From assembly GCA_937935075.1 (NCBI GenBank), contig CALGYB010000028.1, positions 1-60,812 of the forward strand: DNA of 60,812 bases, given 5' to 3'. This document shows, in pieces, positions 8,853-28,464 of this stretch (positions within the stretch are counted from its first letter, which is position 1; every line of letters begins with the position of its first letter). The translations under genes and the position numbers were made by a program. The notes below the pieces were generated by a model, which saw nothing but the letters and a program-made list of their open reading frames with translations, ran no database searches and was not told the DNA's origin. This DNA is from an uncultured Roseiflexus sp. (GTDB taxonomy: Bacteria > Chloroflexota > Chloroflexia > Chloroflexales > Roseiflexaceae).

Positions 8853-10412
8853 TCACACCCTGAACGTCACCGTCAAGCGCCCGAATTGCAGGCGTGCGCC
8901 ATCTTTCAGCGGGTGCTGCGCGCCGGGTTCGATCCGCATGCCATCCACCCGCGTATAGTTTGTGCTGCCCAGATCGACGATCGACCACTGCCCGCCGCTA
9001 TGGATCAGGCGCGCATGCTGGCGACTCACACCACCGCTTTCGCCGCCGAAGGGGGTCAGGTCGATCTCCGGGTGAATGCCGCTGATCGGGTCTTCGCGTC
9101 CGATCGTGATCTCCGCCTTGTCCATTGGAATGGGGATTTCCCCCTGTCCGTCGTCAAACACGAGACGCGCACCGACCGGCGGCGCCAGCACGGTCACAGC
9201 GGTTGCCTGAAGATCTGCATCCGCAGGCGGCTCGGTCACCGTCACAGCCGTATTGGACACGGGCGGCGCAGTGAACGGCAATGGTACAGCCGGCGGGATT
9301 GGCGGAGGCGCCGGTGGCGGCGCCGCAGGTTCAGCGACCGGCGCTGGCGGCGCAGCAGGTTCAGCAACAACTTGCTGCTGCGGCGGCGCTGCTGGTACAG
9401 ACGCTTCGGCAGCCGGCGCAGCGACGCCGAGCGCTGCCAGTTCCGCCTGCGCTTTCGCCCGCGCCTCACGCGCTTCATCCAATGCCAGGGTCACAGCGTG
9501 GGGCGTCGCCGCGCCAAACGTCGCCTGTATCTGCTCGAGTTGCGCAATGATCTGCTCCTGTCGCGCAATCTCGTCGTTGAGCGCAGCAACGACGGCCGGA
9601 TCAACAGGCGGCGGCGGCGGTTGCAGTGCGTCGAGTTCGGCTTGCGCCTTTGCCCGCGCCTCACGCGCTTCATCCAATGCCAGGGTCACAGCGTGGGGCG
9701 TCGCCGCGCCAAACGTCGCCTGTATCTGCTCGAGTTGCGCAACAATCTGCTCCTGTCGCGCAATCTCATCGAGCAGCGCCTGGCGTTTCGCTTCATACTC
9801 CGCCTGCGCATCAATTGCAGGGGCTGTCGGGGTAGGCGACGGCGGGGGCGCAACCGCTTCGACCGGCGGTTCACCAGGGGCTTCTGGTGCGGCTGGCGCA
9901 GCCGGCGGGGTTGGTGGCGGCGCTGCTTCGATCAGCGTGGGCATAGGTGGCTCGAAAGACGCTGGTGGAGCGACTTCGGGCGCAGGAGCAGACCATGGCG
10001 CTGCGGGCGCTGCGGCGGTAGGCGCGTCGGCAATCGACGGCGCCGGCGCAAGCGCCGCGCCACACGCATCGCAGAACCGATCGCCGGGCATGGTCTGGTG
10101 ACCACAGGCCGGGCAGATCGAACCTGCAACCGGCATCGCCGGCGCCGCCATCAGGGTTGGCGCATCAATGCTGACCGGCGCTGCCTCCACGCTGGCAGGC
10201 GGTGTCGCGGTCAGCGGTATGCCGCACTCTTCGCAGAATGCCTGCCCGGGAAGCACCTGGGCGCCGCAAGACGGACAGATCTGAGGAGTCGCGGCAGGCG
10301 GCGCCGCTGATACCGATGGAACAGGTCCACTTGGTTCGAGTCGTGCGCCGCACTGCTCGCAAAAACGGTTCCCCGGCTCGTTGAGAGCGCCGCACGTTGG
10401 ACACGTGATCAT
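8853..10412 (-). CDS. Triple zinc-ribbon, coiled-coil, FHA-domain protein
   Basis: A 519-residue cytoplasmic adaptor. Three double-CxxC zinc ribbons stand at the N-terminus (CPTCG...CEQCG, CPSCG...CEECG, CPACG...CDACG), followed by a long Pro/Ala-rich linker, two near-identical 65-residue coiled-coil units (IARQEQIVAQLEQIQATFG) and a C-terminal FHA domain with ITIGRED, SRQHARL and STNYTRVDG. FHA domains bind phosphothreonine, so this is the likely reader of the kinase encoded in the same operon. The ATG at 10412 is chosen because a GGAGG site sits seven bases upstream; a TTG lies six bases further up. Last gene of a five-gene minus-strand cluster. Confidence 0.88.
   Translation of the reverse strand: MITCPTCGALNEPGNRFCEQCGARLEPSGPVPSVSAAPPAATPQICPSCGAQVLPGQAFCEECGIPLTATPPASVEAAPVSIDAPTLMAAPAMPVAGSICPACGHQTMPGDRFCDACGAALAPAPSIADAPTAAAPAAPWSAPAPEVAPPASFEPPMPTLIEAAPPPTPPAAPAAPEAPGEPPVEAVAPPPSPTPTAPAIDAQAEYEAKRQALLDEIARQEQIVAQLEQIQATFGAATPHAVTLALDEAREARAKAQAELDALQPPPPPVDPAVVAALNDEIARQEQIIAQLEQIQATFGAATPHAVTLALDEAREARAKAQAELAALGVAAPAAEASVPAAPPQQQVVAEPAAPPAPVAEPAAPPPAPPPIPPAVPLPFTAPPVSNTAVTVTEPPADADLQATAVTVLAPPVGARLVFDDGQGEIPIPMDKAEITIGREDPISGIHPEIDLTPFGGESGGVSRQHARLIHSGGQWSIVDLGSTNYTRVDGMRIEPGAQHPLKDGARLQFGRLTVTFRV
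9447..9768. repeat. 195-bp in-gene tandem duplication
   Basis: The segment around 9447-9573 recurs 195 bases later at about 9642-9768 with very few changes. It encodes two adjacent 65-residue coiled-coil units of the FHA protein. High DNA identity, including third positions, indicates a recent duplication or gene conversion. Confidence 0.85.
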
Positions 10413-10439
10413 TCCCAATCCTCCACATGCTTCAAGAGG

Positions 10440-11678
10440 CTATTCTTCCAGTTTTTGCGTCAGGCGCCGGGTGGCGTAGCGCAGTTCTTTCTGGCGTTCG
10501 GCGCTCATCGCCTGACCCTGATCGAGTTGCTCCGCCTGCTCGGAGACTTTTTGCGCCAGTTCGAGTTCTCCCAGATCGAGCAGTCGCGTCGCTGCGGCGC
10601 GCAGTTTCTGAGTGGCGCCCGACAGATTGCCCGCCTCGGCTTCAGAAAGCGCGCGTGTCTGCAATTTGAACGCTGTCACCTTCTCGACCAGGTTCATCAC
10701 ACGCGGGTCGTATGCCGCTTTTGCCGGGTCGGTGACGAATTCGAGCAGAACATCCTGTTTGATCACCTGCTCCGAACCGCCAACCGGCGTGTAGTGGAGT
10801 TCAGCCTGCGCAATCCGAAAACTCCCCGCTTCGCGCGCCGGAACCATCATGTCAATGACAACGCTCGATGGCGCATCGGTCTCGATAGTCCCCAGACGCA
10901 CCGCAATTTCGCTATCGCCAATCGGCTGGTAGCCAAGGTTGGCGATGATCGGGCTGGTGCGGTGCACGGCGCGTGGCGTTGCGTCACGCACCAACCGCAG
11001 CAGCAGACGCGCGTCCTGTGCCACGGTGCCCTGCGCTGCGCGCACCGCATGCTGGAAGAACGTCGTAATCTGCGCCGGATCGGCGATGTAATCCGACAGT
11101 CCGCCAGTGGCTTCGGCGATGTCGTCGAGCAATTTTTCGTTCCATTCTGCGCCAAGACCGAGCGCCGTCACCCGCACGTTGTCGCGCGCCAGTTCCTGCG
11201 CCAGCGAACGGCAGCGATCCTCATCGCCCCACGTCTGTCCGTCGGTCAACAGCAGCATAGCGCCAACCCGTCCGGGGTCATGGTTCTTGCGCAGTTCCAC
11301 AATGCCGGCCGCCATCCCGCCCGACATGGCGGTGCCGCCGGCTTCCTCGATAGCATCGATCTGCGCTTTGAGCGCATCGCGGTCGGTGGCGAACGTTGCG
11401 GGCACGAGCGTCTGCACCGTGTCGTCGAACAGCACAATCGCAACAATATCCTGCGGCGTCAGCGTGTCGATGACCCGTTTTGTCGCCTCCTTCAGCGCCG
11501 CAAGTTTCGCGCCCTGCATCGACCCGGAGCGGTCGAGCACCAGGCAGAAGTTGAGCGGCGCTTTTTCGGCGACCGTCGACGCCTGCGCTTCCACGAGCAG
11601 ATATGCCACCTGCGGCGATGCGCTGGCAACCAGCGGCGCGCGCCCCCACGTGCACGTCAGCGTGACCCCTGTGTTCAT
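10440..11678 (-). CDS. VWA-domain protein
   Basis: A 412-residue protein with a von Willebrand factor A domain. The metal-ion-dependent adhesion motif is intact: DRSGSM, a conserved Thr/Ser segment (GGTAMSGGM) and LLLTDGQTW. The arrangement resembles the inter-alpha-inhibitor-like VWA class, with an all-beta part and a C-terminal helical part (about 310-410). It has no zinc ribbon, unlike the other four products of the operon, and no signal peptide, so it should act in the cytosol. Of two adjacent ATGs the second (11678) is better spaced from GAGGAG. Its place with a kinase, phosphatases and an FHA protein suggests an effector or scaffold. Confidence 0.85.
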   Translation of the reverse strand: MNTGVTLTCTWGRAPLVASASPQVAYLLVEAQASTVAEKAPLNFCLVLDRSGSMQGAKLAALKEATKRVIDTLTPQDIVAIVLFDDTVQTLVPATFATDRDALKAQIDAIEEAGGTAMSGGMAAGIVELRKNHDPGRVGAMLLLTDGQTWGDEDRCRSLAQELARDNVRVTALGLGAEWNEKLLDDIAEATGGLSDYIADPAQITTFFQHAVRAAQGTVAQDARLLLRLVRDATPRAVHRTSPIIANLGYQPIGDSEIAVRLGTIETDAPSSVVIDMMVPAREAGSFRIAQAELHYTPVGGSEQVIKQDVLLEFVTDPAKAAYDPRVMNLVEKVTAFKLQTRALSEAEAGNLSGATQKLRAAATRLLDLGELELAQKVSEQAEQLDQGQAMSAERQKELRYATRRLTQKLEE

Positions 11679-11744
11679 CATGCTCTCCTCGCGCATTCGT
11701 CCAAACAGATCTGGCTCGCCCACTCGAGCGTGCCCGGCAACTGC

Positions 11745-13124
11745 CTAACTGCTCGTCCATCCCACCAGCACAAAAATGCCACAGCACAACAGACCGGTCA
11801 CCAATCCGGTTGCAACGGCAACGATAGCATGCTGGCGACCTCTGATCGTCTTTTGGGTCGCAGGCGAGAGCAGCGCGATCAATCCGAGCAGGAATGCGAG
11901 CGGTCCGGTGGCGAACGGCAGGAATGCTATCACATAGCCGGCGCCGGCCAGTTCACTGTCGATGCCGGTCGTTGCGGCGCTGATGACAACGAGGATCGTG
12001 GCGAACCCCATGAGCAGCACACTGAAAATGCCGATCCAGCGACCGGCATTGGCGACGCCGGTGGTCGGCAATGGCGCAGAGAGCGGTTGCGCTGACGCGC
12101 TGCCAGGGAGAGACGATGAGATCGGCGTCGTTTGCCCGACGGCGCCAGAGACTGCCATCCCCGGGTACGCCATCTCGGTTGGCGCGTCCGTCTGAAGGAT
12201 AACCTGCTGATTGCTCGTCAATGCCTGGTAGAAGGCGCGTACATCGTGGAACCGTGCATTGGGATCGGCATTGACCGCGCGCGCAATCGCGTCGGAGATG
12301 TGTTGCGGAATTGCGGGGTTGACCTGATTGGCGGGAGGCAACCGAAACGGCGTGCGTGTCGGGTCGTAGCCGGTCAACAGTTGATGCAGCAGCACGCCAA
12401 GCGAATAAATATCGGCGCGCGGATCGGTCTGGCTCTGCCCATACTGTTCGGGAGCGCTGTACCCCAGCGTGCCGAATGCCTGTGTGTCGCGTTCCTTGCC
12501 GGGTTTGAAAATGCGCGCAATGCCGAAGTCGACGAGTTTGATACGACCATCGGGCGTCAGCATCACATTTGCCGGTTTCAGGTCACGGAAGATAATGGGC
12601 GTGGGTCGGTTGTGGAGATAGTCCAGCACATCGCAGATCTGGCGCGCCCAGTCGAGAACGCGCGGTAAGGCGAAGGGAAGACCTTCACGACGCGCAATAG
12701 CCAGGAGCGAGTCGCCAGGCACGAACTCCATCACCAGATACGCCTTGCCATCCTGCTCGAAGTGATCGACCACCTTCGGCAGTCCAGGGTGTGAGAGACC
12801 GGCAAGCAGTTCGGCTTCGCGTTGGAACGCCGCGCGCGCCTCTTGCAGTTCCAGTGGTCCGGTAATTTGCGCCTGGCTCATCTCTTTGATTGCCCAGGTC
12901 ACCGTGCTGAGACGCAGATCGCGCGCGCGATAGACGGCGCCCATGCCGCCCTGCCCCAGTTTTTGCTCGATGACGTAGCGCCCCTGAAGAACCGTTTGCT
13001 GCGGTATGGCGCCGGGTGGTGCAGACTGCGATGACGATGCAGGGACGCCTGACAGTCGGGCGCCGCACTCGACGCAGAACGGTGCGCCGTCGTCATTGAG
13101 TGCATTACAGAAAGGACATCGCAT
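11745..13124 (-). CDS. Zinc-ribbon Ser/Thr protein kinase, membrane-anchored
   Basis: A 459-residue Hanks-type kinase. It opens with a zinc ribbon (CPFCN...CVECG, residues 3-21). The kinase domain (about 49-300) has the glycine loop LGQGGMGAVY, Lys80 in WAIKEM, the catalytic loop FRDLKPAN (Asp181, Asn186), DFG at 199-201 and APEQYG, so it should be active; His of the usual HRD is Phe. After a linker come three hydrophobic segments at the C-terminus (about 360-459), which should anchor it with the kinase domain in the cytosol. It starts four bases after the stop of the upstream phosphatase gene, so the two are probably translationally coupled. Confidence 0.92.
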   Translation of the reverse strand: MRCPFCNALNDDGAPFCVECGARLSGVPASSSQSAPPGAIPQQTVLQGRYVIEQKLGQGGMGAVYRARDLRLSTVTWAIKEMSQAQITGPLELQEARAAFQREAELLAGLSHPGLPKVVDHFEQDGKAYLVMEFVPGDSLLAIARREGLPFALPRVLDWARQICDVLDYLHNRPTPIIFRDLKPANVMLTPDGRIKLVDFGIARIFKPGKERDTQAFGTLGYSAPEQYGQSQTDPRADIYSLGVLLHQLLTGYDPTRTPFRLPPANQVNPAIPQHISDAIARAVNADPNARFHDVRAFYQALTSNQQVILQTDAPTEMAYPGMAVSGAVGQTTPISSSLPGSASAQPLSAPLPTTGVANAGRWIGIFSVLLMGFATILVVISAATTGIDSELAGAGYVIAFLPFATGPLAFLLGLIALLSPATQKTIRGRQHAIVAVATGLVTGLLCCGIFVLVGWTSS

Positions 13125-13128
13125 ATAT

Positions 13129-14919
13129 TCAGTACGACTCGAAGAATGCCAGAATGACAGCGATATTATCGTCGCCGCCGGCGGCGTTGGCTGCGTCGAT
13201 CAACGCCCGGCACGCCGCCTGCGGATCGGGGTTTGCGGCAATGATGTCCGCCATTCGCTCGTCACGAACCATTTCCCACAACCCGTCGCTTGCGAGCAGC
13301 AGCCCATCCCCTGGACGCAACCGTTCGACAAAGACATCGATATCGATATTGGGTTTGTCTCCCAACGAACGCAACACCGCATTCCGTTGCGGGTGGGTGT
13401 AGACCTCATCAGGTGTGATCTGTCCGAGATCGACCAGGCGCTGCACCAGCGAGTGGTCGCGGCTGATGCGCCGCAGTTTTCCCTCCCGCAACAGATACGT
13501 TCGACTGTCGCCAACGTTGCCGATAATGGCACGATCACCGGCGACCAGCGCCAGGGTTATGGTTGTTCCCATATCATTTCCGCGACTGCGTGCTTCACGC
13601 ATGACGTAGTCATTCGCCTGAAGGACGGCGCGTCGCACAATATCGCGGAGCGTGTTTTCCTTGTCCTGTGCGTCGGCATCCACCGTCGGCGCAAGATATT
13701 CGCGCTGCACCAGTTCCAGCGCGCCGCGCAGCGCCAGATCCGACGCCACCTCACCGGCGCTATGCCCGCCCATCCCGTCAGCCACGATGAACAGGCTCCA
13801 GACACGCGGTTGATTCTGGCGGATCAGGCGCAGGTCGAACGCCAGCAGACTGTCCTCATTCAGGTCGCGCACGCGGCCGGTGTCGGTGGCGGCGCCGAAC
13901 CGTACCCGCAGCGGTGTTGGCGCAGTATGGTACGCGATGATCAGATCGAACCGCTGCGCCAGTTCAGCCGGATCGGTCAATTGGCCGGTACGGATTTCGC
14001 GCAGCATATCGGCGAGAGGCGGTGCGGCATCGCGCGTTGCATCGTTCTCGTCGAGGCGCCGGGTGGTGCGCGGGGTTGCTGTCAGCGTTTCGAGGAGATT
14101 CGCCAGGTGCAACAGATCGGTTGCGGCGTCTTCTCTATCTGCCCGGTGCAAACTGCGCACCTTCCGCAGGCGCGTTGCATGGGTTGCTGTGATGTCCAGA
14201 TCCTCCGGCTCGATGGCGCCGAGTGCAAAGCCCTGCTCGTGCAGCAACGTCATCAGACGCGCCAGATCGCGCCCGATGAAGAAGGCTTCGAGTTCGCTGA
14301 GCGGCAGTGTGAGCGACGTTGGCGGCGTTGCGGGAGTAAGCGTCAGCGTTTGATCACCATCACTCACCTGATCCCAGATGGAAGGAAAGAAGGCGAGCGT
14401 GTCGGCATCGGCGATCTGTGGCACAAGCGCCAGACCGGTCGGCGCGCCTGTCGTGATCTGTCCCCGGTAGCGACGACCGTCGAGCGCCGCGCCGCACTGC
14501 GTGCAGAATGCCTCTCCCGGTTCGTTGAGGGTTGTATCGCACGACCAGCAGCGCCGCCATGGCTGGCGATCAAGCGCCTCGATCTCGTCGTCGGACAGAG
14601 CGATGATTTCGTAGCGACCCGCAAATAGTTTGGGTTCTCCCGGAGCGGCAGACGGCGCTTCCATGGCATGCTCCTTATCGCAATGCGTCGGAGACGCAGG
14701 ACCCGATGTGGACGATGATGGCGGTTCGTGGGACGGCGTGGCGTGCTCTGCAACGGTTGGGAGAGGACCAGCGGGAACGGCGAGTAATTGCGCCGCCAGC
14801 CAGGTATCATCGTCGGACGACGAGCGTTCGGCTGCAAGCGGTTGAGCGCAGCGCAGGCAGTAGCGGGCATTGTCGCGGTTGAGTGCGCCGCACGATTGGC
14901 AAATAAGAGGCATAGGCAC
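13129..14919 (-). CDS. Zinc-ribbon pseudokinase-PP2C phosphatase fusion
   Basis: A 596-residue protein. Zinc ribbon 1 is at 7-24 (CQSCG...CLRCA) and a second at 124-142 (CWSCD...CTQCG). The C-terminal PP2C phosphatase (about 338-595) has its metal-binding motifs: DLNEDS, VADGMGGH, GDSRTY, ASDGLWE and GGDDNI. Residues about 100-325 look like a decayed kinase: GRYEIIAL at the start, LHEQGFALGAIEPEDLDI where an LH.G..H.DIKPEN loop would be, and TDLLHLANLLETLT like helix F, but without the catalytic Asp, the DFG or the glycine loop. The start is GTG (14919) or ATG (14913); neither has a strong ribosome site. It probably removes phosphates placed by the neighbouring kinase. Confidence 0.88.
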   Translation of the reverse strand: MPMPLICQSCGALNRDNARYCLRCAQPLAAERSSSDDDTWLAAQLLAVPAGPLPTVAEHATPSHEPPSSSTSGPASPTHCDKEHAMEAPSAAPGEPKLFAGRYEIIALSDDEIEALDRQPWRRCWSCDTTLNEPGEAFCTQCGAALDGRRYRGQITTGAPTGLALVPQIADADTLAFFPSIWDQVSDGDQTLTLTPATPPTSLTLPLSELEAFFIGRDLARLMTLLHEQGFALGAIEPEDLDITATHATRLRKVRSLHRADREDAATDLLHLANLLETLTATPRTTRRLDENDATRDAAPPLADMLREIRTGQLTDPAELAQRFDLIIAYHTAPTPLRVRFGAATDTGRVRDLNEDSLLAFDLRLIRQNQPRVWSLFIVADGMGGHSAGEVASDLALRGALELVQREYLAPTVDADAQDKENTLRDIVRRAVLQANDYVMREARSRGNDMGTTITLALVAGDRAIIGNVGDSRTYLLREGKLRRISRDHSLVQRLVDLGQITPDEVYTHPQRNAVLRSLGDKPNIDIDVFVERLRPGDGLLLASDGLWEMVRDERMADIIAANPDPQAACRALIDAANAAGGDDNIAVILAFFESY

Positions 14920-14940: not shown

Positions 14941-16272
14941 TCATCCGAACGACGACCGTCTTCCGCCCTCGATACGCACCATCACCACACTGATGTTATC
15001 TCGCCCGCCACGCTCGTTCGCCAGGCTGATAAGGCGGGTTGCTGCACGCTCAATGTCCGGGTCACTCAGGGCGATCTGAGCGATTTCCTCATCACGGACA
15101 TGATTGACCAGCCCATCGGAGCAGAGCAGGACAATGTCTCCCGGTTCGAGCGCTTCGGAACGGGTATCGACATCGACCGACGGATCGGTTCCGATGGAAC
15201 GGTAGAGAATGTTGCGTTGCGGATGAGTGCGCGCCTGTTCTGGCGTCAACTGACCAATGTCAACCAGGCGCGCCACCAGACTATGGTCGGACGTCAACTG
15301 CGCGGCAGACGCCCCATCGTCGGTGACGCCGTTCAGGTTCAGCAGATACGCGCGCGAATCGCCGACCGACGCGATATGCAACCGGTCGCCGACAATCAGG
15401 GCAATCGTGAGCGTGGTTCCCATCCCGCGGCGCGCAGCATCGGCGTGCGCCACATCATAAATCCGGCGATTGGCGGCGCGCACGGCGTCCCGCAGCAATG
15501 CCCGCCACGTCTCATCGGTTGGCAGCGGGTGGTTGGCCGACTCGCGTTCAAGATAGGCGCGACTCACATCGGCGGCGAGATGACTGGCGTACTCGCCCGC
15601 CGCCGCTCCGCCCATTCCGTCGGCGACCAGGCAGAGGTACGCTTTCTGTCGATCAGGCAGGTCAATCTCGCCGGTGTACACGGCATCCTGGTTCTGCTGG
15701 CGCACCCGACCAGTATCGGTGCGCGCGACGATCTGAAGTGTGAACGTGCGTGGTTGCACAGGTCCGACTCCATAGTGTGGCGTGGCATCGAGCAATGCGC
15801 CGCATCGCTGGCAGAAACGTGCGCCGGCTCGATTACCGCTGCCGCATGATGGGCAGGCGATATCGAACGTGCGCAGCGCAGGCAGTCGCCTGGTAACGCG
15901 GATGGTAGTGCGCCCCTGCGCCAGTTGCTGCGACAGACTGCGCATAATCTGCGACAGTTCATCAATCGCACGCGCTGCCTGCTCGCGGGTGACGGCATCG
16001 CTGCTGTTGAGCCCGCGCTTCCACCATTGCACGCTCGATTCTACCACGTTTATCAGTTCACGCAGATCGAGCGTATTGTCGCTGATCTGCAAACGTTTAC
16101 CGTGCGCACGGTCGAACCGCAGCGCTCCTTCGATAGGCGGGTCACCGGTTTCCGCCGGTGGCGATACCGGGTGTTGCAACGGCGGCGATTGCGGCAACGC
16201 TCGCCCGCACTTTGGGCAAAACCGCGATCGTGGCATGACCGTTGCGCCACAGAATGGACAGCGCGCGCTCAA
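14941..16272 (-). CDS. Double zinc-ribbon PP2C phosphatase
   Basis: A 443-residue protein and the first gene of the minus-strand signalling cluster. Zinc ribbon 1 is at the N-terminus (CPFCG...CPKCG), followed by a helical stretch (about 65-120), zinc ribbon 2 (CPSCG...CQRCG, about 139-158) and a PP2C domain (about 178-435) with QNQDAV, VADGMGG, GDSRAY, CSDGLVNH and GGRDNIS, so the metal-binding Asp residues are present. The start is TTG at 16272 with GGAGG five bases upstream and Cys codons of the ribbon immediately after. It lacks the kinase-like insert of the next gene. The two phosphatases are clear paralogues. Confidence 0.9.
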   Translation of the reverse strand: MSARCPFCGATVMPRSRFCPKCGRALPQSPPLQHPVSPPAETGDPPIEGALRFDRAHGKRLQISDNTLDLRELINVVESSVQWWKRGLNSSDAVTREQAARAIDELSQIMRSLSQQLAQGRTTIRVTRRLPALRTFDIACPSCGSGNRAGARFCQRCGALLDATPHYGVGPVQPRTFTLQIVARTDTGRVRQQNQDAVYTGEIDLPDRQKAYLCLVADGMGGAAAGEYASHLAADVSRAYLERESANHPLPTDETWRALLRDAVRAANRRIYDVAHADAARRGMGTTLTIALIVGDRLHIASVGDSRAYLLNLNGVTDDGASAAQLTSDHSLVARLVDIGQLTPEQARTHPQRNILYRSIGTDPSVDVDTRSEALEPGDIVLLCSDGLVNHVRDEEIAQIALSDPDIERAATRLISLANERGGRDNISVVMVRIEGGRRSSFG

Positions 16273-16329: not shown

Positions 16330-16357
16330 TTGACATCTCTTCGTGACCGACTACAAT
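16330..16357 (+). promoter_or_regulatory. Sigma-70-type promoter of the ROK gene
   Basis: TTGACA (16330-16335), 16 bases, TACAAT (16352-16357). This predicts a leader of about 40 bases for the ROK gene that starts at 16404. Confidence 0.7.
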
Positions 16358-16403
16358 GGTGCAACCTGTTTGTTCAGCGATCCACAGGAAAGCCGGTTTG
16401 ACT

Positions 16404-17450
16404 ATGAGTGTGCAACGATACGTCTACATTGGCGCCGATGGCGGCGCCACGACCTCCAAGATCGGTGGTGTTTGGGATGATGGGACGGTAATTTCCACCA
16501 ATCTGTTGCAGCAGCCAACAGGTTCGGTGAACGGTCCGGCGGCGGTGGTGCACGGATGGGTCGAGGCGATTACCGGGTATCTCGCGCAGTATGGGTTGGC
16601 ATGGGATCAGGTGCGCGGCGTTGGTCTTGCCATCCCCGGTCCGTATGAGCGATTCGGCGTTCTTGGTCGCTCGCCGAACCTGCCGGAGAGTTTCGCCGGG
16701 TTCGATCTGTATGGCGCCTTCAGTACCGCCCTGGCGGAACGCGCCGGTCGCCCCATCCCGCTGGCTTTCGGCAATGACGGCAATATGGGCGGGGTCGCCG
16801 AAGCGCAGCATGTGCGGGGGAACAGCAATGCAACCGTCGTTATGCTGGCGCCGGGCACCGGTTTGGGATGCGCCTACATCGGGCGCGACGGTCTGCCGCT
16901 CGATGGCGACTCGTTGAATGGCATGGAAGCCGGACATATGCCGGCGCCGCTGCACCTGCTCGATGTCCGGCCTTACCCCTGCGGCTGCGGTCGAACATGG
17001 GGATGCTTCGAGGTCTATACGACGCTCTCCGGTCTGCCCTATTTGCTGGAAGAGCGATTGCCACGCTACCCGGATCACGAACTGGCAACCTCGGCGCTCA
17101 GTATGCGCGAACGCGCGTTCCGGCTGCGTGGGCTGGCGCAGCACGGCGATTCGCTGGCGCTGGAGATTTTCGATTTTCAGGCGCGTGCGTTGGGGTTACT
17201 CGCGGCAACCCTGGCAATGGCGCTCGATATGCAGTATGTCGTCGTCGGCGGCGGCTTGATGGACCCCGAAGCGACGACTGCCGCGTTCCGCGAACGCTAC
17301 CTGCGCATCGTGCGCGAAACAGCCGACGCCTACCTCTGGGCGCCGCAGCGCGGCTTCCTGACGATCGTTCCGGCAGCGCTGGGCGACCTGTCGCAGGCGA
17401 TTGGCGCTGCGCTGACCAGCCTGTATCAGCAGCGCGCCGCTCATGGCTGA
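16404..17450 (+). CDS. ROK-family sugar kinase (glucokinase-like)
   Basis: A 348-residue cytoplasmic kinase of the ROK family. It has the phosphate loop IGADGGATTSK, a sugar-binding segment GNDGNMGGVAEA (catalytic Asp in the ND pair), LAPGTGLGCAYI, GMEAGHMP and a zinc-binding CGCGRTWGCFE. This supports ATP-dependent phosphorylation of glucose or a related hexose or N-acylhexosamine; the exact substrate cannot be read. The ATG at 16404 is used because the conserved domain begins six residues later and AGGAAAG stands upstream. It is a single gene with its own promoter. Confidence 0.85.
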   Translation: MSVQRYVYIGADGGATTSKIGGVWDDGTVISTNLLQQPTGSVNGPAAVVHGWVEAITGYLAQYGLAWDQVRGVGLAIPGPYERFGVLGRSPNLPESFAGFDLYGAFSTALAERAGRPIPLAFGNDGNMGGVAEAQHVRGNSNATVVMLAPGTGLGCAYIGRDGLPLDGDSLNGMEAGHMPAPLHLLDVRPYPCGCGRTWGCFEVYTTLSGLPYLLEERLPRYPDHELATSALSMRERAFRLRGLAQHGDSLALEIFDFQARALGLLAATLAMALDMQYVVVGGGLMDPEATTAAFRERYLRIVRETADAYLWAPQRGFLTIVPAALGDLSQAIGAALTSLYQQRAAHG

Positions 17451-17517: not shown

Positions 17518-17525
17518 ATGGATAC

Positions 17526-17655
17526 GATCTTCGGGGCAGGGTGAAATTCCCGATCGGCGGTGATGTGCAGCATACTGCACCAGCCCGCGAGCCGCAAGGC
17601 AGGAGACCGGTGCAAATCCGGCGCCGACGGTTACAGTCCGGATGGGAGAAGATCG
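17526..17655 (+). ncRNA. FMN riboswitch (RFN element)
   Basis: The conserved RFN core is readable: an outer GATCTTCGGGGCAGGGTG strand that pairs with GGGAGAAGATC at the end, then GAAATTCCCGATCGGCGGT, AGCCCGCGAGC, ACCGGTGCAAATCCGG and GACGGTTACAGTCCGGATG. It binds flavin mononucleotide and normally shuts off downstream genes when FMN is plentiful. A promoter lies directly upstream and an intrinsic terminator 120 bases downstream, ahead of a riboflavin transporter operon, consistent with control by transcription attenuation. Confidence 0.96.
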
Positions 17656-17773
17656 GCGAGCATGGCAGTTTCTTGATCATGGTCGCGGTTATGCGCGCGT
17701 AACCGCCGGATCATGCGAGAGGCCCTATCAGGCGTTGCGTACAGCGCATACGCCTGGTTCGCTACAACAATGC

Positions 17774-17804
17774 CCCGAAGCCATGTGGCTTCGGGTTTTT
17801 GTTT
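17774..17804 (+). terminator. Intrinsic terminator of the FMN riboswitch
   Basis: CCCGAAGCC - ATGT - GGCTTCGGG (17774-17795) followed by TTTTTGTTT. It lies between the aptamer and ribX, so it is the likely regulated terminator. The 110 bases between aptamer and hairpin should hold the competing antiterminator, which I did not resolve. Confidence 0.88.
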
Positions 17805-17911
17805 CACACAATCTGGCCTGTTGCCGGCGCAGGTTCGGATCTGTGTGCGGCAGCCTGCTCCCGTCACCTTCCCCCATCTCCCCCTGCCTCGTATCACATG
17901 CGAGGTGTCTC

Positions 17912-18739
17912 ATGGTCAACGAACAACATCTGCCGCTGCGATCCGACCGATCGCTCCGAATAACCGCCAGGACTGTACGCCGACGCTCCGCGCGTCTGCC
18001 GGTCTGGTTGAACCTGACGCTGGCGCTGGTCATCTTCCTGATTGGCTGGCAGACCCTGGTGACGATCCAGAACTACCCGCCATTCATTCTTCCCGCGCCA
18101 ACGCTGGTGTTCCAGCGCCTGGCGACGGAACTTGCAGGCGAAACCTTGCCGCGCCATATCGCGGTCACCGTTTCTGCTGCACTGAGCGGTTTTGGCATCG
18201 CTCTGGCGATCAGTCTGTCGCTTGGCTACATGCTGGCGCATGTGCGCGCCTTTGATCGGGTGCTGACCCCGCTGCTCGCCGCCAGTCAGGCGGTGCCGAT
18301 TGTGGCGGTGGCGCCGCTCATTGTGCTGTGGGTCGGTGTGGGGATGGAGTCGCGTGTGCTGGTGGCGACGCTTGTAACCTTCTTTCCGATTCTGAGCGCA
18401 ACCATTGTCGCATTCCGCAGCGTTCCGCGCGAGTTGATCGACATGGCGCGGATCAGTGGCGCGAACCGCTGGCATCTGCTGCGCTATGTGGAATTGCCGC
18501 TGGCGCTGCCGGGCATCTTCGGCGGCGTCAAAGCCGGGCTGGCTCTGGCGACGACCGGCGCGGTCGTTGGCGAGTTCGTCGGTGGGCGCGATGGACTCGG
18601 CGCGCTGATCAACATCGCGCGCGGTTTGTTCGATACGCCGCTCATGTTCGTGTCGCTGACCGTGCTGGCGGGTATCACGCTGATCCTGTTCCTGATCGCG
18701 CTGGTGATTGAACGCCTGTTGATTACCTGGGAGGCATAA
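17912..18739 (+). CDS. ribX: Riboflavin ABC transporter permease RibX
   Basis: A 275-residue inner-membrane permease of the BPD/SsuC-like class, with about six hydrophobic helices and the cytoplasmic EAA-type loop RELIDMARISGANRWHLLRYVELPLALP. Homologous permeases of nitrate/sulfonate/taurine systems look alike; the riboflavin assignment rests on the FMN riboswitch upstream and on the ribY partner, a combination known from Chloroflexi. The ATG at 17912 has GAGGTG upstream. ribY starts two bases after its stop. No ATPase gene is adjacent, so one encoded elsewhere must power it. Confidence 0.88.
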   Translation: MVNEQHLPLRSDRSLRITARTVRRRSARLPVWLNLTLALVIFLIGWQTLVTIQNYPPFILPAPTLVFQRLATELAGETLPRHIAVTVSAALSGFGIALAISLSLGYMLAHVRAFDRVLTPLLAASQAVPIVAVAPLIVLWVGVGMESRVLVATLVTFFPILSATIVAFRSVPRELIDMARISGANRWHLLRYVELPLALPGIFGGVKAGLALATTGAVVGEFVGGRDGLGALINIARGLFDTPLMFVSLTVLAGITLILFLIALVIERLLITWEA

Positions 18740-18741
18740 CG

Positions 18742-19785
18742 ATGCAACGCCTGGTTGTTCTCCTGATGCTGATGTTTGGGTTGATAGCAGCCGGATGTGG
18801 CGCAACGCCAGCCGCAGCGCCGGCCACGCCGGCCGCCGCAACGACGCCGAACGGGTCTGCGGCGCTGCGCCCGGTTGTGATGGGATTTCCGTACATTCCG
18901 AATGTCCAGTTCGCCCACTTCTACCTGGCAGACGCCAAAGGCTACTACGAAGCCGAAGGACTCGACGTGTCCTTCGACTATAACTTCGAGACCGACGTGG
19001 TGCAGCGTGTAGCGCAGGGGACGTTGCAGTTCGCGCTGGCGTCGGGCGACTCGGTGCTGCTGGCGCGCTCGCAGGGGTTGCCGGTCGTGACCGTGATGAC
19101 CAACAGCCAGCGCTTCCCTTCCGTGCTCTTCAGCAAAGCGGAAGCGAACATCACCACGCCGCAGGACCTGACGCGCGATGGGGTGACAGTTGGCATTCCA
19201 GGGCGCTTCGGCGCCAGCTGGGTCGGGCTGCTGGCGCTGCTCTATGCTGAGAATATCCCGCGGGAAGCGGTCGATATCCAGGAGATCGGCTTCACGCAGG
19301 TGGCAGCGGTTAGCGAGGGGAAGGTGACCGTGGCCATGGGGTATGGCAACAACGAACCGATCCAGCTCGAACGGCAGGGCATCCCGGTGAATGTCATCCG
19401 GGTCGCCGATTACTTTCCGCTGGCTTCCGACGGGCTGATCACCGGCGAGCAACTGATGACCGGCGAGTCCGACACGGTGCGTGGATTCGTGCGCGCGACC
19501 CTGCGCGGCATGGCGGATGTGATTGCCGATCCTGACGCCGCATTCACCACTGCGCTCGACTACATCCCCGAACTCAAGAACGCCGATCAGTCGACGAAAG
19601 ACTTGCAGCGCGCCGTGCTCCAGGCGACGCTGGAGTACTGGCAGAGCGACAAGACGAAGACCGAGGGGCTGGGGTTCTGCGACGAGACGAACTGGCGCCA
19701 AACCTACGTCTTTCTGCGCGAGAGCGGACTGCTGGCAACCGATGTGGACGTGACAAAGGCGTTCACCAATCAGTTCATCAAGTAG
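18742..19785 (+). CDS. ribY: Riboflavin-binding lipoprotein RibY
   Basis: A 347-residue substrate-binding lipoprotein of the NMT1/THI5-like fold. The signal peptide ends in the lipobox IAAGC, then an Ala/Thr/Pro linker, then VVMGFPYIPNVQFAHFYLADAKGYY and EGLDVSFDYN, typical of this fold. It should capture riboflavin (or a flavin precursor) outside the membrane and hand it to RibX. A GGAGG site precedes ATG 18742. Specificity is inferred from the FMN riboswitch and operon structure; thiamine-precursor binders share the fold. Confidence 0.88.
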   Translation: MQRLVVLLMLMFGLIAAGCGATPAAAPATPAAATTPNGSAALRPVVMGFPYIPNVQFAHFYLADAKGYYEAEGLDVSFDYNFETDVVQRVAQGTLQFALASGDSVLLARSQGLPVVTVMTNSQRFPSVLFSKAEANITTPQDLTRDGVTVGIPGRFGASWVGLLALLYAENIPREAVDIQEIGFTQVAAVSEGKVTVAMGYGNNEPIQLERQGIPVNVIRVADYFPLASDGLITGEQLMTGESDTVRGFVRATLRGMADVIADPDAAFTTALDYIPELKNADQSTKDLQRAVLQATLEYWQSDKTKTEGLGFCDETNWRQTYVFLRESGLLATDVDVTKAFTNQFIK

Positions 19786-27483: not shown

Positions 27484-27828
27484 GTAAACCTCCAGTACAA
27501 CAACGTTGCCAGGAATGTCTGAAACCCGGCAAAGGGACACTTTGAGGAAATCGAGATGCGCGTCTGCGGTGAGATGCCAGAGACCGTCTCACAGGGACGC
27601 TGTACCACTATACTTCAAACAGGCGTATACTGTCAATGATCAGAAACTGATAGATGTGGTATACTCCACCTATACTCGCAATAAACAGGATGTCGAGCAG
27701 GCGCTGACGTACTACGTCTTCGTCGTTTACACCGTGACGCTGGCGGACATCCGTTCAGACCTGCGTTGCGATGGGATCGCTGAGAACCTCCTGGATTGCA
27801 TGTTGTCTGTCGTGAAGGATACAGATCT
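27484..27828. other. Divergent promoter region
   Basis: 345 bases between divergent genes. It contains the minus-strand promoter at 27607-27636 and three TATACT-like strings near 27626-27680, one of which may serve the plus-strand gene. A GAAGGA site lies before 27829. No coding sequence is apparent. Confidence 0.5.
27607..27636 (-). promoter_or_regulatory. Promoter of the VanW gene
   Basis: On the minus strand TTGACA (27636-27631), 18 bases, TATAGT (27612-27607). It predicts a leader of about 115 bases before the GTG start. Confidence 0.7.
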
Positions 27829-28464
27829 ATGCCTGATAATGGTATGACTGAACTCGATCTCCTGGTCGGGTCGATGTTTACCACCCTCCCTGACGAGGAT
27901 CGTGAAAGTTACGAGGCGGAACGTGAGTGGTTAACCGACGTGCAGAATCTGCTGCGTGATGAGGGGGTGGAAGTCGATCTGCTGGCGAACCCCGGCGTCG
28001 AGATCTGGGAAGGCGGCATCGAGCGGTATCACGATCTCTTCCTGCTGCGCCTTATCGCAGTGTATCTGGAAAACGGTCAGGATATCACGCCGTTGCTGGC
28101 GCCAGGTTTCGAGTTTGATGAAGAACCCGACCCAATGCTGGCGGCTATCTGGGAGGATGAACAAACGACACGCTTCCCGCACTTGATCAAGCATCAGGGT
28201 GAAGGCGGCTATTACCTGCCGGTCGATTTTCCGGAGCCGATCTGGATCGAGGAAGAACCGGCGGATGATGAGGACGAGCCGACTACGGAGTCGGTGGTCA
28301 GTTTTGGTTCATCGACGGCGCTTCAACGCGAACTGGTCGAACTCGAAGGAATGCTGGATCAGGCAGGCGTGAAATTGGAACACCCGGTTCGTCGCTGCCT
28401 GGGTGTGCTGCGTGAAGCCGCCGATGTGAGTGTTGCCAATGGTCTGCCGATCATTGTGTGGTGA
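27829..28464 (+). CDS. Acidic protein of unknown function
   Basis: A 211-residue acidic, soluble protein without recognised domain. Helical N-terminal part (MTELDLLVGSMFTTLPDEDR), a middle rich in Asp/Glu with EEPADDEDEPTTE, and a helical end (ELEGMLDQAGVKLEHPVRRC). No signal or membrane segment. AAGGAT precedes the ATG. It converges on PEP carboxylase across a shared palindrome. Confidence 0.6.
   Translation: MPDNGMTELDLLVGSMFTTLPDEDRESYEAEREWLTDVQNLLRDEGVEVDLLANPGVEIWEGGIERYHDLFLLRLIAVYLENGQDITPLLAPGFEFDEEPDPMLAAIWEDEQTTRFPHLIKHQGEGGYYLPVDFPEPIWIEEEPADDEDEPTTESVVSFGSSTALQRELVELEGMLDQAGVKLEHPVRRCLGVLREAADVSVANGLPIIVW

Follow-up and report, generated by a model that had tools for sequence, protein, structure and literature searches.

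A PP2C phosphatase of an uncultured Roseiflexus sp. that carries a zinc-ribbon-interrupted region of kinase ancestry, a predicted pseudokinase

Our results support the view that a gene in the window (the whole stretch of DNA that was analyzed, 60,812 nucleotides from an uncultured Roseiflexus sp.) encodes a PP2C phosphatase whose middle region, residues 94-340, is of kinase ancestry and can be regarded as a pseudokinase, predicted from its sequence to be catalytically dead. The product consists of a zinc ribbon, a linker, a kinase-like region of about 245 residues, and an intact PP2C domain. Strand and coordinates of the open reading frame are as given in an earlier, sequence-only reading of this DNA; comparison with orthologs places the true start probably at the ATG at 14913. 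The features of the gene are as follows.

13129..14919, minus strand: protein with zinc ribbon, predicted pseudokinase and PP2C domain, 596 amino acids; the open reading frame starts with GTG at 14919
14848..14901, minus strand: N-terminal zinc ribbon, Cys 7/10/21/24 (Pfam Zn_Ribbon_1, 35.9 bits)
13900..14640, minus strand: predicted pseudokinase region, residues 94-340 (hhalign, PDB profile search, AlphaFold2/Foldseek/VIA-align)
14494..14550, minus strand: second zinc ribbon, Cys 124/127/139/142, at the position of the β2-β3 loop (alignment A1 and model)
14191..14223, minus strand: catalytic-loop equivalent LGAIEPEDLDI, residues 233-243, HRDxxxxN lost (kinase alignment and sequence)
14158..14166, minus strand: DFG equivalent RKV, residues 252-254, metal-binding Asp lost (kinase alignment and sequence)
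14056..14073, minus strand: PRTTRR motif, residues 283-288, in a loop that follows helix F and is modeled with low confidence (alignment and model)
13138..13899, minus strand: PP2C domain, residues 341-594, metal ligands kept (NF033484 above its cutoff)

Searches of Pfam and NCBIfam found nothing between the N-terminal and C-terminal domains besides a further zinc-ribbon match spanning roughly residues 123-144, and the window protein by itself matched neither Pkinase in Pfam nor any kinase among the PDB sequences. Taken alone, these single-sequence searches would have led us to discard the kinase idea wrongly. A single-sequence query of the genome contigs returned five close relatives only. 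From 60 related genomes we gathered orthologs and aligned their middle region, which gave an alignment of 38 ortholog sequences (A1) and a second one to which nine kinase-like distant sequences were added (A2). When compared by hhalign with a profile of 58 kinase domains, A1 matched at 96.9% with the zinc ribbon and at 97.1% without it, and the C-lobes alone matched at 96.0% (A1) and 97.3% (A2). Comparison with the neighboring kinase alone gave 95.9% and 97.9%. Sixty column-shuffled versions of each profile reached 4.8% at the maximum (2% or less for the C-lobe), and negative controls with VWA, FHA, and PP2C profiles reached at most 5.1%. The N-lobe of A1 alone matches kinases weakly (10%); the match is clearer in relatives, at 75% for the A2 N-lobe without its zinc ribbon against the same profile and at 92.7% for the N-lobe-only relatives described below. 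Against PDB sequences, the A1 and A2 profiles found mainly kinases, besides zinc-ribbon proteins and a few weak others, and the pseudokinases ROP5, VRK3, RYK, and ROR1 were among the best matches (E about 0.001-0.02). Among 1186 ORFs, a zinc-ribbon-free profile matched, outside its own family, only kinases or other kinase-derived proteins. The zinc ribbon is excluded as the cause of the kinase match, which persists after its removal. Some orthologs also display subthreshold matches to Pkinase or PK_Tyr_Ser-Thr (best E 1.7e-4). By sequence profile, the region is related to Hanks-type kinases (hhalign 96-97%, with the PDB profile matches). The profile search had been proposed in the sequence-only reading, which described a phosphatase fused to a dead kinase, and with kinases and pseudokinases found, controls near zero, and the catalytic motifs lost, that description is borne out.

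The structure prediction proposed in the same reading was in part confirmatory: the model matched kinases, but its N-lobe was of low confidence. The AlphaFold2 model of residues 93-341 was built from five sequences, the distant orthologs being left out, and its mean pLDDT was 65. Its secondary structure runs in the order β1, β2, zinc-ribbon segment, β3, β4, β5, and helix E, which has 22 residues, and continues with β7, β8, helix F, and two C-terminal helices; helix C is missing and the activation segment is nearly absent. The assignments made from the sequence hold in the model, with GRYEIIAL as β1, LHEQG...EPEDLDI at the position of the catalytic loop, and TDLLHLANLLETLT as helix F (residues 264-280 in the model). 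In a Foldseek search, the best 50 rows were all kinases, with PknB at the top (E 1.4e-4). VIA-align superposed the C-lobe of the model on YabT with Z 12.5 (rmsd 3.2, 119 residues) and on PknG with Z 11.7, whereas strands β1-β5 of the N-lobe were predicted at low confidence and superposition on kinases over the whole length was poor. Because of the low-confidence N-lobe, a bilobal kinase fold in residues 94-340 is indicated rather than proven by the model. Modeling the region together with PP2C gave a poorer result (pLDDT 55), which was set aside; with one model this shallow and the other this poor, no domain interface can be read from them.

The residues expected of an active kinase, the β3 Lys, the HRD Asp, and the DFG Asp, are all missing from the window protein. 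The Gly-loop, the catalytic Asp, and DFG had already been reported lost in the sequence-only reading, and the β3 Lys is now added to that list. The most distant orthologs (group f2) keep the HRD and DFG aspartates as GD and RDA, as would be expected from a stepwise decay of catalysis. This raises the possibility that the pseudokinase binds a nucleotide or another small ligand and that a metabolite, not a docked protein, gates the phosphatase. Pseudokinases can bind nucleotides, and the f2 aspartates are in keeping with such a role, but the window protein itself retains neither Gly-loop, β3 Lys, HRD Asp, nor DFG Asp, and we consider gating by a metabolite unlikely. Nucleotide binding by pseudokinases is discussed in PMC12599244.

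The residues invariant in 38 of the 38 orthologs (A1) include Arg284, Thr286, and Arg310. The first two sit in a PRxTRR-like motif, where the loop after helix F is disordered in the model, and the PRTTRR motif of the window protein may be a phospho-site or docking motif. Among close relatives, the pseudokinase has a dN/dS of 0.09-0.18 and PP2C one of 0.08-0.15, indicating that both are under purifying selection. Kinase homology, loss of the catalytic motifs, and maintenance by selection, which together characterize a pseudokinase, are therefore all found in this region. That it is instead a passive, functionless relic, gradually disappearing since a kinase-PP2C fusion died, seems very improbable. 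Its dN is roughly double the value for PP2C, and relatives in other Chloroflexota families have no C-lobe at all, both of which would fit a relic; the low dN/dS, the presence of a full-length A1 match in 38 of 40 Chloroflexales genomes of the phylum sample, and the invariance of the zinc ligands and of Arg284, Thr286, and Arg310 across the order argue against it.

The proposal that a zinc ribbon interrupts the N-lobe also stands: Cys 124/127/139/142 are invariant in the 38 orthologs and fall at the position of the β2-β3 loop. The best evidence for placing the ribbon in that loop comes from relatives in which only the N-lobe piece remains; once its ribbon is taken out, this piece aligns to the kinase N-lobe with a probability of 92.7%, against a null maximum of 1.2%. 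Further Chloroflexota families (f20, f36, and f39) have such proteins; in these, the front part (β1-β2, zinc ribbon, β3, β4-β5) is followed directly by PP2C, and all four Cys are kept there with the remaining kinase part gone. Chloroflexota PP2Cs of this kind, with only a zinc-ribbon-bearing remnant of a kinase N-lobe ahead of PP2C, were seen at L112-L118. This conservation might suggest that the ribbon is a sensor, the metal or redox state of its Cys4 site reshaping the N-lobe and switching PP2C, with the rubredoxin domain of PknG as the analogy. PknG likewise has a Cys4 site joined to a kinase, and its C-lobe is among those matched by our model; it differs in being an active kinase with the rubredoxin N-terminal rather than inside the N-lobe. 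Zinc ribbons are found in most of the operon proteins, where they may be merely structural or docking elements, and the pseudokinase-PP2C proteins of Deinococcus, of cyanobacteria, and of Chloroflexota f29/f57 have no embedded ribbon; a zinc sensor thus appears quite unlikely.

The PP2C domain is supported as a competent-looking Ser/Thr phosphatase, since its sequence retains all of the metal-binding motifs (NED, DGMGG, SDG, and GDDN) and scores 233.6 bits against NF033484, the Stp1/IreP-type PP2C, whose curated cutoff is 230. The NF033484 model covers the catalytic domain alone (232 positions), whereas about 340 residues precede PP2C in the window protein. PRK14559 (NF011149, 642 positions) resembles the window protein in layout, being a long protein that begins with zinc ribbons, continues with an extended middle region, and ends in PP2C, and matches to some orthologs of the window family begin about 60 positions ahead of PP2C; the window protein itself, at 112.2 bits, stays below the cutoff of 374. 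This model was above its cutoff in 1 of 14 control genomes.

The gene lies in an operon with small gaps, in the order PP2C, pseudokinase-PP2C, kinase, VWA, FHA, which is kept across much of the Chloroflexales. Its neighbors are the following.

14941..16272, minus strand: two zinc ribbons and PP2C, without a pseudokinase (domain search)
11745..13124, minus strand: zinc ribbon, active-looking Ser/Thr kinase (AIK, FRDLKPAN, DFG) and hydrophobic C-terminal segments
10440..11723, minus strand: VWA protein (domain search)
8853..10418, minus strand: three zinc ribbons and an FHA domain (domain search)

The sequence-only reading had the pseudokinase serve the neighboring kinase, and this part came out less well supported, as several Chloroflexales genera retain the VWA and FHA neighbors with no kinase in the operon slot. 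A kinase-like protein without HRD (L122, 257-1699, plus strand) lies about 3 kb upstream of one kinase-lacking operon. In f20 and f36, the order is PP2C, active-looking kinase, N-lobe-PP2C, VWA, FHA.

Searching plasmids with the window protein turned up PP2Cs of Deinococcus and of cyanobacteria with unannotated N-terminal halves, and these halves match kinases at 98.0% (Deinococcus) and 97.2% (cyanobacteria); the cyanobacterial set itself does not match the window family directly by profile (0.1%). On plasmid 3 of Deinococcus radiodurans (L134, 3296-5146; WP_010889593.1), an unannotated pseudokinase precedes PP2C in a VWA-kinase-FHA operon, the order in Deinococcus being VWA, kinase, FHA, pseudokinase-PP2C. 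Plasmids of Tolypothrix, Gloeothece, Trichormus, and Nostoc (L135-L139) carry VWA, FHA, and pseudokinase-PP2C, mostly with a kinase, and f57 has VWA, FHA, pseudokinase-PP2C, kinase. Two further Chloroflexota proteins (L120 and L121) join a fuller pseudokinase to PP2C, and in one of them Pkinase is above the Pfam cutoff. In a PP2C tree, the window family groups with the N-lobe-only proteins (support 95/93), and the Deinococcus and cyanobacterial proteins group with L120 and L121 (support 99/97). Despite this split, the fusions of Chloroflexales may have a common origin with those of Deinococcus, cyanobacteria, and Chloroflexota f29/f57, as a single clade was not rejected (p-AU 0.37); domain transfer is possible as well. 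In the same genome as the window, two other kinase-like proteins have lost their catalytic motifs, one with DnaJ-type Cys repeats (L077; G000:C41, about 10584-11183) and one followed by WD-type repeats (L081; G000:C48, about 27574-28002).

The recurrence of this pairing in three bacterial phyla, mostly in similar kinase/VWA/FHA clusters, suggests that we are probably dealing with a genuine regulatory arrangement rather than a remnant in decay. We lean toward the interpretation that an active phosphatase uses its pseudokinase as a noncatalytic docking or allosteric module. The pseudokinase would dock a partner, most likely one of the operon proteins, and would thereby position or switch the adjoining PP2C. 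By one route, modeled on the reported case of MviN and FhaA (PMC12599244), the operon kinase would phosphorylate the loop with the invariant Thr286 and the FHA protein would read it; the complex on which the kinase acts would in turn recruit the phosphatase or gate it. A phospho-switch through Thr286 cannot be general, since the motif is absent from the N-lobe-only relatives. More tentatively, pseudokinase-PP2C could be a standard part of a widespread kinase-phosphatase-VWA-FHA module, in which the dead kinase copy recognizes its cognate kinase or the FHA/VWA complex, perhaps as a kinase-pseudokinase heterodimer, and in which, in Chloroflexota, a ribbon would have taken over part of the N-lobe to the point that some lineages retain nothing but this piece.

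An account from 2005 (PMC1262709) describes kinase-PP2C fusions in Pseudomonas and Deinococcus, which resemble the window protein in combining PP2C and a kinase-like domain in one polypeptide. In the Pseudomonas fusions, which were treated as composite kinase-phosphatases, PP2C is N-terminal to the kinase domain, whereas the window protein has its kinase-like part on the N-terminal side, and this part is dead and has a zinc ribbon inserted in it. MviN (ActPs3) is a bacterial pseudokinase that has lost all three motifs and is linked to an FHA protein; it belongs to a membrane protein of cell wall synthesis, not to a phosphatase, and the passages of PMC12599244 that concern it describe no zinc ribbon. 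For the bacterial pseudokinase families on record (ActPs1-3, GLW, CP1, DYD, and DLHK), the passages found in that 2025 review name no PP2C fusion or zinc insert. Clusters in which kinase, PP2C, and VWA genes adjoin, as they do here, are described in PMC7159879 (VWA/PP2C/zinc-ribbon kinase clusters), where the account of the PP2C presents it as catalytically active and mentions no pseudokinase in it. A 2025 survey found about 90% of bacterial PP2Cs to be single catalytic domains; it records zinc ribbons for Chloroflexota and Cyanobacteriota, and Pkinase domains chiefly for Pseudomonadota (PMC12088040). In the open-licence literature, we found no description of a bacterial pseudokinase-PP2C protein, nor any account of a pseudokinase whose N-lobe contains a zinc ribbon. 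The proteins add an apparently undescribed group, in a region left blank by standard annotation, to the little-studied bacterial pseudokinases. The basis on which a bacterial PP2C is paired with its kinase is often obscure, and pseudokinase-PP2C, conserved over one order and recurring in three phyla, including the experimentally tractable D. radiodurans, in a similar gene setting, provides a direct way to ask.

Elsewhere in the window, a gene that by its sequence resembles ROK-type sugar kinases (16356-17450, plus strand) is divergent from the operon. An FMN riboswitch (RF00050, 104.3 bits; 17523-17657, plus strand) lies just upstream of genes for an ABC permease and a substrate-binding protein (17642-19785), which, because of this position, probably encode a transporter of riboflavin or a precursor.
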